In this document: positions 60,295 through 63,770 of the stretch, piece by piece
Numbering within the stretch: the stretch's first letter is position 1
How the letters are laid out: every line of letters starts with the position of its first letter
Source of the DNA: an uncultured Aquimarina sp.
GTDB taxonomy: Bacteria; Bacteroidota; Bacteroidia; Flavobacteriales; Flavobacteriaceae
Direction: 5' to 3'
Length of the DNA: 64,000 nt
Assembly (NCBI GenBank): GCA_947489685.1
Contig: CANLEM010000005.1
Span: 124,001-188,000, forward strand
Position numbers and translations under genes: made by a program
The notes under the pieces: generated by a model
The model's database searches: none
What the model saw: the letters and a program-made list of their open reading frames with translations, nothing else
Told to the model about the DNA's origin: nothing

Positions 60295-60939
60295 TCATAA
60301 TTCCATAGAGGTCTTTAAAAACATTTTAAGCTCACTTAACATCATTGCAGTTGCACCCCAAACAGTGTAACCATTTAATTTAAAGGAAGGTACTTCAATA
60401 TTTTCTGCATAAGAAGTGGATAACTTCTGCAAAACTATATTGTCATCATTAAGTAAATCATCCAATGCAACTTCTATTACTTCGGCTACTTCTTCTTCTT
60501 GAAGTACAAATTTGGGTCTACTATCGGTATAACCAAAAAAAGGATGTACCCAAAAATTTGAAGGTGGTATATACACCTTTGTCAGTGTTTTTAGAACTTC
60601 TACAGTTTTAGTATGCACTCCTACTTCTTCATAGGTTTCTCTAAGAGCAGTCTCAATATAATCCCGATCGTAGGTTTCTACTTTGCCTCCTGGTAATGCT
60701 ATTTGTCCGGAATGCACTCCTTCATATTGAGGTCTTAAAATTAAAACAATATGTGTAACACTTTCTTTTGGATAAAAAAGCATCATTACTGCAGCATTTC
60801 TCGGGTTTCTTTCTTCTATTTTTAAACGATTAAGCTCTTTTACACGAATCTCTGGAGCCATAATAAAATGCGAAGAGTCTCCCGGTACTGACATTTTCTT
60901 TATTTTTGGAATTAATTTTTTAAATGTTTCAAATGTCAT
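60295..60939 (-). CDS. NUDIX CoA pyrophosphatase (NudL-like)
   Basis: A 214-residue NUDIX hydrolase predicted to cut CoA or acyl-CoA to 4'-phosphopantetheine and adenosine 3',5'-bisphosphate. The CoA-specific signature VLILRPQYEGVHSGQIALPGG precedes the NUDIX box GGKVETYDRDYIETALRETY followed by EEVG. Length is normal for the family. It is upstream of the acyltransferase gene on the same strand, which fits a lipid or acyl-CoA housekeeping unit. Its start codon overlaps the divergent cyclophilin gene. Confidence 0.9.
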   Translation of the reverse strand: MTFETFKKLIPKIKKMSVPGDSSHFIMAPEIRVKELNRLKIEERNPRNAAVMMLFYPKESVTHIVLILRPQYEGVHSGQIALPGGKVETYDRDYIETALRETYEEVGVHTKTVEVLKTLTKVYIPPSNFWVHPFFGYTDSRPKFVLQEEEVAEVIEVALDDLLNDDNIVLQKLSTSYAENIEVPSFKLNGYTVWGATAMMLSELKMFLKTSMEL

Positions 60940-61673
60940 TTACCAGATCTATTTTAGTCTTTTGCTTTTGTTTTTTCTTATTCTCTAATTGTGAAGATAC
61001 ACATTCTAAAAAAAATAAAGAGAATGTTTTAAAAACAGCTTCAGATAAAAAAGAAGATATCTCGAATACTCCATCCCCAAAAAAGGATAGTAAAAAAACC
61101 GAAAAAGCTGATGAAAAGGAACCCTTTAAACTTACTAATGAAAACTTAATAGAGTTTATGGTAAATTATGGAAAAGAAAACCCTGAAACACTTGTGGGTA
61201 TAAAGACAAGCTACGGCGATATCCATATCAGACTATACAAAGAAACTCCTATACACAGAGCCAATTTTATCTATTTGGTAAAACAAAAATATTTTGACGA
61301 GACATTTTTCTACCGTGTTGCTAAAGGTTTTGTAATCCAGGGAGGTAATAGTGATCGACAAGAAATGGCTACAAGGCGTTTTCAAATTGGCGAATACTCG
61401 ATTCCGCAAGAACAAATAAAAGGCTTAAAGCATGTTCGTGGAGCAGTAGCTTTATCAAAACAATGGGTTAATAATCCATCCAATCGTTCTACTCCATACG
61501 AGTTTTTTATAGTTCTTGCCAAAAAAGGAGCGCACCATTTGGATGGTGAACATACCATTTTTGGTAAAGTTGTAAAAGGCATGAATGTAGCCGATAAAAT
61601 ATCACAAGTTCCTGTAGATGGTAGTGAATGGCCCAAAGAAAATATATTTATTAAGGCCGAAGTAATTAAATAA
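60924..61673 (+). CDS. Cyclophilin-type peptidylprolyl isomerase, lipoprotein
   Basis: A 249-residue protein (or 246 from the second ATG at 60933). Lipobox LFSNCEDTHS, then a Lys/Glu-rich linker to about residue 75, then the cyclophilin domain: GDIHIRLYKETPIHRANFIY, FYRVAKGFVIQGGNSD, RGAVALSKQ, YEFFIVLAKKGAHHLDGEHT and FGKVVKGMNVADKI. It should fold exported proteins at the inner or outer membrane. Its 5' end overlaps the 5' end of the CoA pyrophosphatase gene on the other strand by 16 bases from the first ATG, or seven from the second, so their promoters must lie within each other's coding sequence. Confidence 0.88.
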   Translation: MFQMSFTRSILVFCFCFFLFSNCEDTHSKKNKENVLKTASDKKEDISNTPSPKKDSKKTEKADEKEPFKLTNENLIEFMVNYGKENPETLVGIKTSYGDIHIRLYKETPIHRANFIYLVKQKYFDETFFYRVAKGFVIQGGNSDRQEMATRRFQIGEYSIPQEQIKGLKHVRGAVALSKQWVNNPSNRSTPYEFFIVLAKKGAHHLDGEHTIFGKVVKGMNVADKISQVPVDGSEWPKENIFIKAEVIK

Positions 61674-61704
61674 TCAATAATTACATCAATAAATTTTTAA
61701 TCAA

Positions 61705-61730
61705 AAAAAGCGGACCGAAGTCCGCCTTTT
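61705..61730. terminator. Bidirectional terminator, UUCG tetraloop on the minus strand
   Basis: Arms GCGGAC (61710-61715) and GTCCGC (61720-61725) flank CGAA on the plus strand; on the minus strand the loop reads UUCG, closed by C-G, with an added G-U pair, A4 before and a long T-run after. It terminates the RiPP precursor transcript (minus) and also the cyclophilin transcript (plus). Confidence 0.85.
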
Positions 61731-61734
61731 AGGT

Positions 61735-61896
61735 TTAACAAGGTGAAGCAATAGTTTCACATTGACAGGTGTTTCTAGTACCCACGTACCATTTTACACG
61801 TTCCTTATATTCGCCCATTGGATGTGCCAATCCTCCTCTTAATTGTGCTACTGCTTTTTTACTTAGTTCTAATTTTTTAAGATTGTTTTTTTTCAT
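61735..61896 (-). CDS. RiPP precursor peptide (class I lanthipeptide-like), orphan
   Basis: A 53-residue peptide too short for normal gene calling. The leader is KKNNLKKLELSKKAVAQLRG, ending in Gly21-Gly22; its LKKLxLxKxxVAxL pattern is the leader type of Bacteroidota class I lanthipeptides and rSAM-modified RiPPs. The 31-residue core ends TCQCETIASPC, with three Cys (44, 46, 53) and nearby Thr/Ser (40, 43, 48, 51) suitable for lanthionine rings or thioether/disulfide links. A Gly-Gly processing peptidase-transporter would remove the leader. No LanB, LanC, radical-SAM or transporter gene occurs in the window. It has its own strong terminator and 150 bases of upstream space. Which modification class it belongs to is open. 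Confidence 0.75.
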   Translation of the reverse strand: MKKNNLKKLELSKKAVAQLRGGLAHPMGEYKERVKWYVGTRNTCQCETIASPC

Positions 61897-62048
61897 GATA
61901 TGAAAATTTTATGATTTATATTATCATATCAATAAGGAAAGAAAAGTGTTACCCTATAAAATGAAAATTATTAAGAAAAAGTGTTTATCCATGTCGTAAA
62001 TCAATTATTAACACCTCATTATCAATGAATTAAATTTTATTTAAATAA

Positions 62049-62771
62049 TTATTGTTGAGTATAATAATTGTAATCTTTAAGGACAGTATCGATAAATTGA
62101 CGATCATAGAGTTCTGATTTGACTTCCAAAACCTCTTCGACCTTATCTCTAAGAGCAGTTAATGTTTTAAAATCATTAGATTTTTTTGCAATGATATAGG
62201 TCTCTTTTATTAACCTAACATCTTTATCCGATAATTTGGTAACGTTCATGAATTTTGGTTGATAATCTTCTGTCAGATCTTCCAAAATAGTATGCGAGAT
62301 TTTCACTTTCTGCTTATTGGATATAACTACCGTTCCCGCAGCAGCATCTCCTAACCGTTGCCGTTTTTCAGAAAATAAAATAGTCAAAATACCTACCGAA
62401 GCCAGAAAAATCCATATATCAACCAATCGCAACATCCATCTTACCATATAATTACTCCAATGTGCTGGTAATCCATCAATACGTACAACTCGTATTTTTA
62501 GGATCATTTTACCGACTGTTCTACCATTAAAAATGATATGCATAATGAGAGAATAGAACATAACGGGTAACAATAATAAAGACTGTATCCCAAAAACCGT
62601 CCAATTATCCTTAAAAGCAATACCAACAAGTGATGTGATAAAATTAACGATAAATAAGTATAGCCAGAATATGGCAAAATCTATTAGTGCTGCTAACATT
62701 CTTTCTCCTATACTAACTGTTTTATAGTCTAGGTTAACATTTTGTGTTGTGTTGATTGCTAAATTTGCCAT
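62049..62771 (-). CDS. RDD family membrane protein
   Basis: A 240-residue protein of the RDD family. The start of the domain (TVSIGERMLAALIDFAIFWL) carries the Arg and Asp residues of the name, followed by three or four membrane helices and the basic segment VGKMILKIRVVRIDGLPAHW. The C-terminal 90 residues are a soluble helical tail (KVEEVLEVKSELYDRQFID). The SpoIIM-like gene is divergent with 39 bases between, a conserved neighbourhood in Flavobacteriia that usually also includes a MoxR ATPase and DUF58 gene beyond the right end of this window. Confidence 0.87.
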   Translation of the reverse strand: MANLAINTTQNVNLDYKTVSIGERMLAALIDFAIFWLYLFIVNFITSLVGIAFKDNWTVFGIQSLLLLPVMFYSLIMHIIFNGRTVGKMILKIRVVRIDGLPAHWSNYMVRWMLRLVDIWIFLASVGILTILFSEKRQRLGDAAAGTVVISNKQKVKISHTILEDLTEDYQPKFMNVTKLSDKDVRLIKETYIIAKKSNDFKTLTALRDKVEEVLEVKSELYDRQFIDTVLKDYNYYTQQ

Positions 62772-62810
62772 TTACGAGTAAGTCATTATCTTTAACCAAA
62801 AAATTGATAG

Positions 62811-63770
62811 ATGCGGGAAGCAGCTTTTGTGAAGCAAAATAAAGAAAAATGGATCGCTTTTGAAAAAGCAATTAGCCAAAATTTAAAAATAAGCCCTGAT
62901 AAGTTAGCCGATTACTATATTCATTTGACCAATGATTTGTCGTATGCACAAACATACTATCCAGATAGTAAGACGTTATTATACCTTAATTCTTTAGCTT
63001 CTCAAGCTCATCAAAAAATCTATATTAACAAAAAAGAAAATAAGAATAGAGTCGTCAATTTTTGGAAAACAGAATTTCCTTTATTCTTTTACCAACACCA
63101 GAAAACTCTATTATACGCCTTCTTAATTTTTGGTACTGCCTGTTGCATTGGTATTATTTCGGCTTTAAATGATGCTTCTTTTCTTAGGCTGATTTTGGGA
63201 GACGAATACGTAAACGAAACTCTTAATAATATTGAGAAAGGAGATCCTACGGGAATCTATAAAAGTGGTAGCATGGTTGGCTCTTTCTTAGGCATCACCA
63301 TTAATAACATTAGAGTAGCCTTTTTGGCTTATGCCTTTGGCGTCATTACATCTGTAGGAACGGGTTACATATTATTTAGTAACGGTATTATGCTGGGTGC
63401 TTTTATGACCTTTTTCTATACAAAAGGGGTATTGTTTGAAGCTTCGAAATCAGTATGGCTTCACGGAACTATAGAAATATCGGTTATTGTTATTGCAGGT
63501 TGTGCAGGATTGGTTATGGGAAACAGTATTTTATTTCCCACAACATATTCTAGAAGGGTTTCCTTTATGAAAGGTGCCAAAGGTGGTTTAAAAATAGTGG
63601 TTAGTACCATCCCCTTTTTTATTATTGCTGGTTTTATAGAAGGATTTATAACCCGATATTCTAATATGCCCACGTGGCTGGCCATGTCAATTATTTTTGG
63701 CTCATTAGCCTTAATTTTATTTTATTACATCATCTACCCCATAATTTTAAACAAAGCCTATGATCGATAA
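62811..63770 (+). CDS. Stage II sporulation protein M-like (SpoIIM) membrane protein
   Basis: A 319-residue membrane protein of the SpoIIM family. The N-terminus is a soluble helical region (AFVKQNKEKWIAFEKAIS) and at least five membrane helices follow (LLYAFLIFGTACCIGIISAL, NIRVAFLAYAFGVITSVGTG, ILFSNGIMLGAFMTFFY, ISVIVIAGCAGLVMGNSI, IIFGSLALILFYYIIYP). The segment WLHGTIEISVI is the family signature. The host does not sporulate as far as can be judged; in Bacteroidota the family accompanies RDD/MoxR/DUF58 genes. The next gene overlaps its stop by 11 bases. Confidence 0.88.
   Translation: MREAAFVKQNKEKWIAFEKAISQNLKISPDKLADYYIHLTNDLSYAQTYYPDSKTLLYLNSLASQAHQKIYINKKENKNRVVNFWKTEFPLFFYQHQKTLLYAFLIFGTACCIGIISALNDASFLRLILGDEYVNETLNNIEKGDPTGIYKSGSMVGSFLGITINNIRVAFLAYAFGVITSVGTGYILFSNGIMLGAFMTFFYTKGVLFEASKSVWLHGTIEISVIVIAGCAGLVMGNSILFPTTYSRRVSFMKGAKGGLKIVVSTIPFFIIAGFIEGFITRYSNMPTWLAMSIIFGSLALILFYYIIYPIILNKAYDR

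Follow-up and report, generated by a model that had tools for sequence, protein, structure and literature searches.

A conserved stand-alone lanthipeptide-type precursor gene in Aquimarina and its candidate maturation in trans

Introduction

Class I lanthipeptide precursors (LanAs) of Bacteroidetes carry a leader with the motif LxLxKx5L and a closing Gly-Gly, and their LanB enzymes may be split, both features being described in the available part of PMC7268733. In class II, the prochlorosins are modified by one promiscuous enzyme, ProcM (available part of PMC10783134). The genus Aquimarina is presented as rich in biosynthetic clusters, RiPPs included, in the accessible portion of PMC10734526.

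The gene characterized here lies in a window of 64,000 nucleotides (G000:C5:124001-188000), which is the whole stretch of DNA analysed, from an Aquimarina genome (G000) of 4.7 Mb in 74 contigs. It shares with the class I precursors of Bacteroidetes (NF038153) the leader motif, the Gly-Gly and a Thr/Cys core, in a genome that likewise holds a split LanB, LanC and C39 transporters. However, it is a single gene at a fixed chromosomal site, unlinked to LanB and LanC, its core is more conserved than its leader, and it scores below the NF038153 cut-off. Prochlorosin cores vary greatly, and their leader is of the Nif11 type; the likeness to them is in the many precursors per modifying enzyme, whereas their enzyme is of class II and here the leader is of the Gly-Gly type and the core hardly varies. 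Rings D and E of nisin are formed from a Thr followed by a Thr-Cys-x-Cys arrangement, and our core has the same arrangement except that its two Thr are one residue further apart; homology is not claimed. A search by title or abstract start in a partial literature collection found no paper on this peptide. The kind of precursor is already known, and the interesting part is a solitary conserved gene far from the enzymes.

Results and Discussion

The peptide gene and the constraint on its core

The frame at 61735-61896 (minus strand) translates to a leader, MKKNNLKKLELSKKAVAQLRGG (residues 1-22), followed by a core, LAHPMGEYKERVKWYVGTRNTCQCETIASPC (residues 23-53). The original prediction, made from the letters of the window, had described a 53-codon frame with a Lys/Leu-rich leader and a Cys/Thr-rich end, and both descriptions are borne out: the leader ends at Gly21-Gly22, and the last 14 residues (TRNTCQCETIASPC; codons 61738-61779, minus strand) hold three Cys, three Thr and one Ser.

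Of the 66 genomes of the genus, 22 (the window genome counted) have the gene in a protein search that covered 188 genomes; three weak partial matches lie beyond the genus (E 0.025-0.086). A named collection added one orthologue, L051; its 11 matching loci comprise nine titled Aquimarina, one Bacteroidia MAG and one doubtful Tectomicrobia entry, the last rejected as an orthologue and regarded as a chance match, only 19 residues being covered. Profile A1, which combines L051 with 18 of the 22 orthologues (L014-L017 omitted, their protein being identical to that of L013), was run over 395 genomes of the order, a sample of a larger group, and returned the gene itself and a single weak, partial match at E 0.0026. 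A second alignment, A2, contains 19 of the 22 orthologues (L015, L017 and L018 omitted). A single open frame is kept in all 22 orthologues, which together with their presence in a third of the genus genomes and a dN/dS well below 1 places the frame beyond chance and confirms 61735-61896 as a real gene.

Concerning the two halves of the peptide, dN/dS over 21 of the 22 orthologues (L026 has another length and was omitted) is 0.18 for the leader, 0.046 for the core and 0.034 for the last 14 codons, at a high synonymous divergence (pS 0.53-0.71 by region). The mean pairwise difference is 0.101 in the core vs 0.353 in the leader (permutation p 0.0002, codons taken as independent). Judged by these codon comparisons, the core is under strong purifying selection, tighter than that on the leader. 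This order of conservation, core above leader, is the unusual point of this gene; in bacteriocin precursor families it is usually the core that is less conserved. Within it Thr40, Thr43, Thr48, Cys44, Cys46 and Cys53 are invariant in 21/21 full-length orthologues and Ser51 is variable, an invariance of Thr and Cys that is not specific, since most of the core is invariant. In the leader, L9 and L11 do not vary among 19 aligned orthologues. Of the conservation on which the original prediction had staked itself, frame, Gly-Gly (22/22) and Cys stand, with the exception of the single orthologue L026, which ends in CFCEF and has lost the last Thr and the last Cys.

The leader

Two kinds of leader mark class I lanthipeptides, FxLD or, in Bacteroidetes, LxLxKx5L with Gly-Gly, and the window copy has the second. 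Among the 248 ORFs of 35-100 aa in the window the LxLxKx5L...GG pattern occurs once, in this peptide, and shuffling the peptide produces it in 21 of 200,000 cases. The strict motif is present in 12 of the 22 orthologues, the window copy included, and a relaxed form with L or V in the last place in 21. The model NF038153 'class I lanthipeptide' (lant_leader_L1a) gives the window copy 12.6 bits, under its cut-off of 22; one of seven other orthologues scanned singly exceeds it (L009, 23.3 bits), and 15 of 19 are matched at E<=10.

In a profile search with 35 leaders taken from LanB stretches, the window copy comes out first among the 248 window ORFs (E 4.6e-5, the next ORF at 0.22); the choice of leaders, 35 distinct ones starting with MKK out of 95 frames, favours such a match. 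A second profile, made from 21 leaders of G000 loci without LanB, matches equally well (E 2.3e-5). With a subset of 20 leaders from the LanB stretches the match to the window copy is worse (E 0.0054), although L021 is matched well (1.6e-7). As these scores go, the leader does not discriminate between maturation routes. Motif and profile matches do support what was first proposed, namely a RiPP precursor with a lanthipeptide-type leader. Out of 37 comparisons of cores, one gives a likeness to the LanB-cluster core GSHNTFCECE at p 0.008, which is not significant after correction. Searches with the peptide yielded only irrelevant matches, two among solved structures (E 3 or worse) and one in Pfam (E 0.048).

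Maturation enzymes in the window, the genome and the genus

The absence of a maturation enzyme in the 64 kb, already stated in the original prediction, was borne out by tblastn with the LanB, the LanB-C, the LanC and one C39 transporter of G000 as queries (best E 0.25 in the window, and 0.057 in the 15 kb surrounding the gene, which extend some 9 kb past it). Genome-wide there is one LanB, on contig C1, and three LanC, on C1, C1 and C2; none is on C5, the contig of the window, so that neither genome, window nor the 9 kb past the gene places a LanB or LanC in a cluster with it. The split LanB (746 + 298 aa) is accompanied on C1 by two LanC and eight precursor-like frames, and the third LanC lies beside a precursor on C2. 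Six C39 matches were obtained, four of them with positions (C1 twice, C3 and C4). The search of the remaining genome that had been proposed therefore finds LanB, LanC and C39 elsewhere, and the suggested modification by unlinked enzymes holds up as far as gene content can tell.

All 22 carriers of the peptide gene have LanB, LanC and C39, vs 28, 25 and 36, respectively, of the 44 non-carriers. Having both LanB and LanC is associated with carriage (Fisher p 4.8e-5 for 66 genomes and 8.8e-4 for the 58 that are >=90% complete, kinship ignored). Yet of 16 non-carriers inside the two carrier clades of the isomerase + nudix tree, 15, read by hand, have both enzymes as well, which indicates that the co-occurrence is largely of clade level; it leaves the prediction unviolated and says nothing more.

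The LanB stretches, fetched for all 22 carriers, show that the enzyme type varies, 13 carriers having at least 65% identity to the G000 LanB and nine only <=53%; the LanB tree covers 41 of 71 LanB matches. Eight carriers lack a match to the G000 LanC (E<=1e-10) in their 20-kb LanB stretch, yet each has a LanC elsewhere. The one-contig genome G019, for example, has LanB at 476 kb and LanC at 4,155 kb, and a second, divergent LanB that adjoins a LanC at 5.33 Mb.

Within G000, the C2 LanC and its adjacent precursor (G000:C2:731603-733126; L202:9604-11127), with DUF805b upstream, have no LanB in the 20-kb stretch. An island on C3 (G000:C3:761234-776966; L059, L060) holds 15 Gly-Gly precursor-like frames and a C39 transporter, with no LanB or LanC there and no LanC on the whole contig. 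The syntenic places of five relatives (L203, L204, L207, L208 and L209; flanking proteins 65-92% identical), loci that were fetched because they hold a LanC, do carry one, and one C3 core is nearly identical to the core beside the LanC of G026. Given the C2 LanC without LanB and the C3 island without the LanC present at its relatives' syntenic place, the unlinked use of lanthipeptide enzymes looks normal here. Two more stand-alone precursor-like frames occur in the genome, on C3 (L063:7611-7763) and on C5 (L062:8892-9041), the latter near a gene that is integrase-like by eye. In another genome, a second LanC copy (L113; G015:C15:22580-23703) is interrupted by stops and lies next to an intact LanC.

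The same gene content allows a reading without LanB or LanC, in which a C39 transporter would cleave and secrete an unmodified or disulfide-bonded double-glycine peptide that is then oxidised extracellularly. The six C39 matches, and C39 in all carriers, would provide for it, as would a C39 transporter on C3 that has a thioredoxin-like partner amid Cys-rich precursors, similar gene sets at two C1 places (by eye), and the match of the window copy to the profile made from leaders of LanB-free loci. Nevertheless, three Cys are odd for closed disulfides, the LanC at the C3 island's syntenic place in five relatives (chosen for having it) points the other way, and the leader motif is the one published for class I LanAs in the available part of PMC7268733. 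We hold this explanation possible, on the unlikely side.

Upstream element and hairpin

The 58 or so bases before the start codon (61897-61954, minus strand) contain a conserved element, GGTAACA, a spacer and TGATAT-N5-TATAAATCAT, which reaches the start codon. All three blocks are present in 22/22 orthologues with TGATAT and TATAAATCAT always five bases apart, and the search pattern is exact in the loci of 18 of the 22 carriers. In the whole genome it matches once, at the peptide gene; a backward-read control also matches once, so that uniqueness is at chance level. What supports the element is its conservation, on which ground it is a probable promoter or operator.

A structured 5' RNA is not supported by the folding models: the alignment consensus folds at -0.17 kcal/mol with compensatory pairs absent, though on the other side the window's own upstream strand reaches -10.2 kcal/mol, somewhat more stable than its shuffles (z -1.9, 8/200 equally good). 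Rfam gave no family at gathering score over 61650-62100 (11 sub-threshold matches, E<=5). Model R1, run over 54 loci, is significant only for the window gene and its orthologue L051 (next best E 0.06). A regulon shared between the window gene and LanB-cluster precursors was considered and rejected: DUF805b RNA (RF02914) stands above gathering score directly upstream of four such precursors (G000:C1:265108-270004; L057, L058), with none at E<=5 at the window gene. In the genome this RNA has 18 matches, 13 above gathering score (150 of 3638 candidates scored), and a related sequence pattern precedes a small frame 27/27 times across the 51 sources scanned.

Downstream, at about 61703-61730 (minus strand), the predicted terminator-like hairpin on the peptide's strand was confirmed in its UUCG loop, its T run and its fold of -16.4 kcal/mol (z -3.8, 1/200 shuffles equally good). 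By its position between convergent genes it may be common to the peptide gene and the neighbouring isomerase gene, and it is no proof of the transcription that the original prediction read from it.

Genomic setting and gene history

This neighbour (60924-61673, plus strand), which we take to be peptidyl-prolyl isomerase-like, adjoins the peptide gene in 22/22 carriers. Upstream, on the same strand as the peptide gene, lies a presumably RDD-like membrane protein gene (62049-62771, minus strand), with a homologue inside the 3-kb locus in 18 of the 22. Where its homologues in other carriers were seen, three have 81-97% identity and the others 38-43%, and the gene beyond it shows the same split (the two genes span window 62049-63770); this division in both genes suggests that genes beside the peptide gene have been replaced in carriers.

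In 30 non-carriers, read for 900 bases past the isomerase gene, both the peptide frame and the upstream element are absent (in L143 a GGTAACA stands by itself 815 bases away). Relic searches of these loci gave short blastn matches in 6/30 (best 52 bases, 75%, opposite strand) and tblastn matches in 3/30 (E 0.17 or worse), thus no convincing relic by sequence similarity. A tree of isomerase + nudix, made with the 22 carriers and 30 of the 44 non-carriers (eight omitted as <90% complete, six without a fetched locus), has carriers interspersed with non-carriers; mixed groups are supported for L150/L019 (100) and L023/L153/L151/L022 (99), several other nodes being weak. Since the peptide subtypes track this tree, by eye, repeated loss of an ancestral gene appears likelier than repeated gain. 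A mobile element was also considered and rejected: plasmid and phage searches gave no match, and neither of two pattern matches in viral contigs was confirmed.

The one fixed genomic site, a core more conserved than the leader and an upstream element that does not resemble the DUF805b RNA found at several LanB-cluster precursors would also suit a small protein kept in or on the cell, with a leader-like start inherited from a precursor and now unused. We consider this rather improbable: the Gly-Gly is unchanged in every orthologue, neither L9 nor L11 varies among 19 aligned sequences, and AlphaFold predicts no fold with confidence (mean pLDDT 51.9). The alternative offered in the original prediction, modification of a TIGR04149-type peptide by a radical-SAM enzyme, is very improbable. 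TIGR04149 matches 7/19 orthologues weakly (E<=10, the lowest E being 0.15), and the scores seen stay under the cut-off of 25 (window copy 9.3, L011 11.8). The SPASM radical-SAM maturase model TIGR04085 has a match in 15 of the 22 carriers and none at E<=0.001 in seven, G000 included, which argues against an obligatory partner of SPASM type. For SPASM and carriage Fisher p is 0.43 for 66 and 0.78 for 58 genomes, kinship ignored.

A precursor matured in trans

We favour the reading that the gene stands alone and encodes a precursor of class I lanthipeptide type that is matured in trans, to which, weighing motif, constraint and gene content, we give a probability of about 0.55. The unassigned class that had been left as an option is then not needed. 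In this scheme the unlinked split LanB on C1 would dehydrate Thr40, Thr43 and Thr48 of the core, one of the three LanC-like cyclases would close the methyllanthionines, and a C39-peptidase ABC transporter would cleave after Gly22 and export a 31-residue product. As the simplest match, we infer that Thr40/43/48 would pair with Cys44/46/53; three invariant Thr and three invariant Cys beside a variable Ser51 suit such rings, and in L026 the last Thr and the last Cys are lost together, which fits one ring.

The constraint on the core, tighter than on the leader, suggests a fixed target or signalling role, and not a fast-evolving bacteriocin. More tentatively, and with rather long odds, the product could be a near-invariant lanthipeptide specific to the genus, a fixed signal or structural product with its own promoter, matured in trans by the LanB and LanC that each strain keeps for its diversifying precursors.

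Cluster-based mining locates lanthipeptides via their enzymes, hence a conserved precursor without a linked enzyme would be easily overlooked. If matured in trans, the present gene would add a class I case with a Gly-Gly leader to the class II prochlorosins. A core held by selection would imply a defined target or role, and may offer a tractable entry to lanthipeptide function in marine Bacteroidota.
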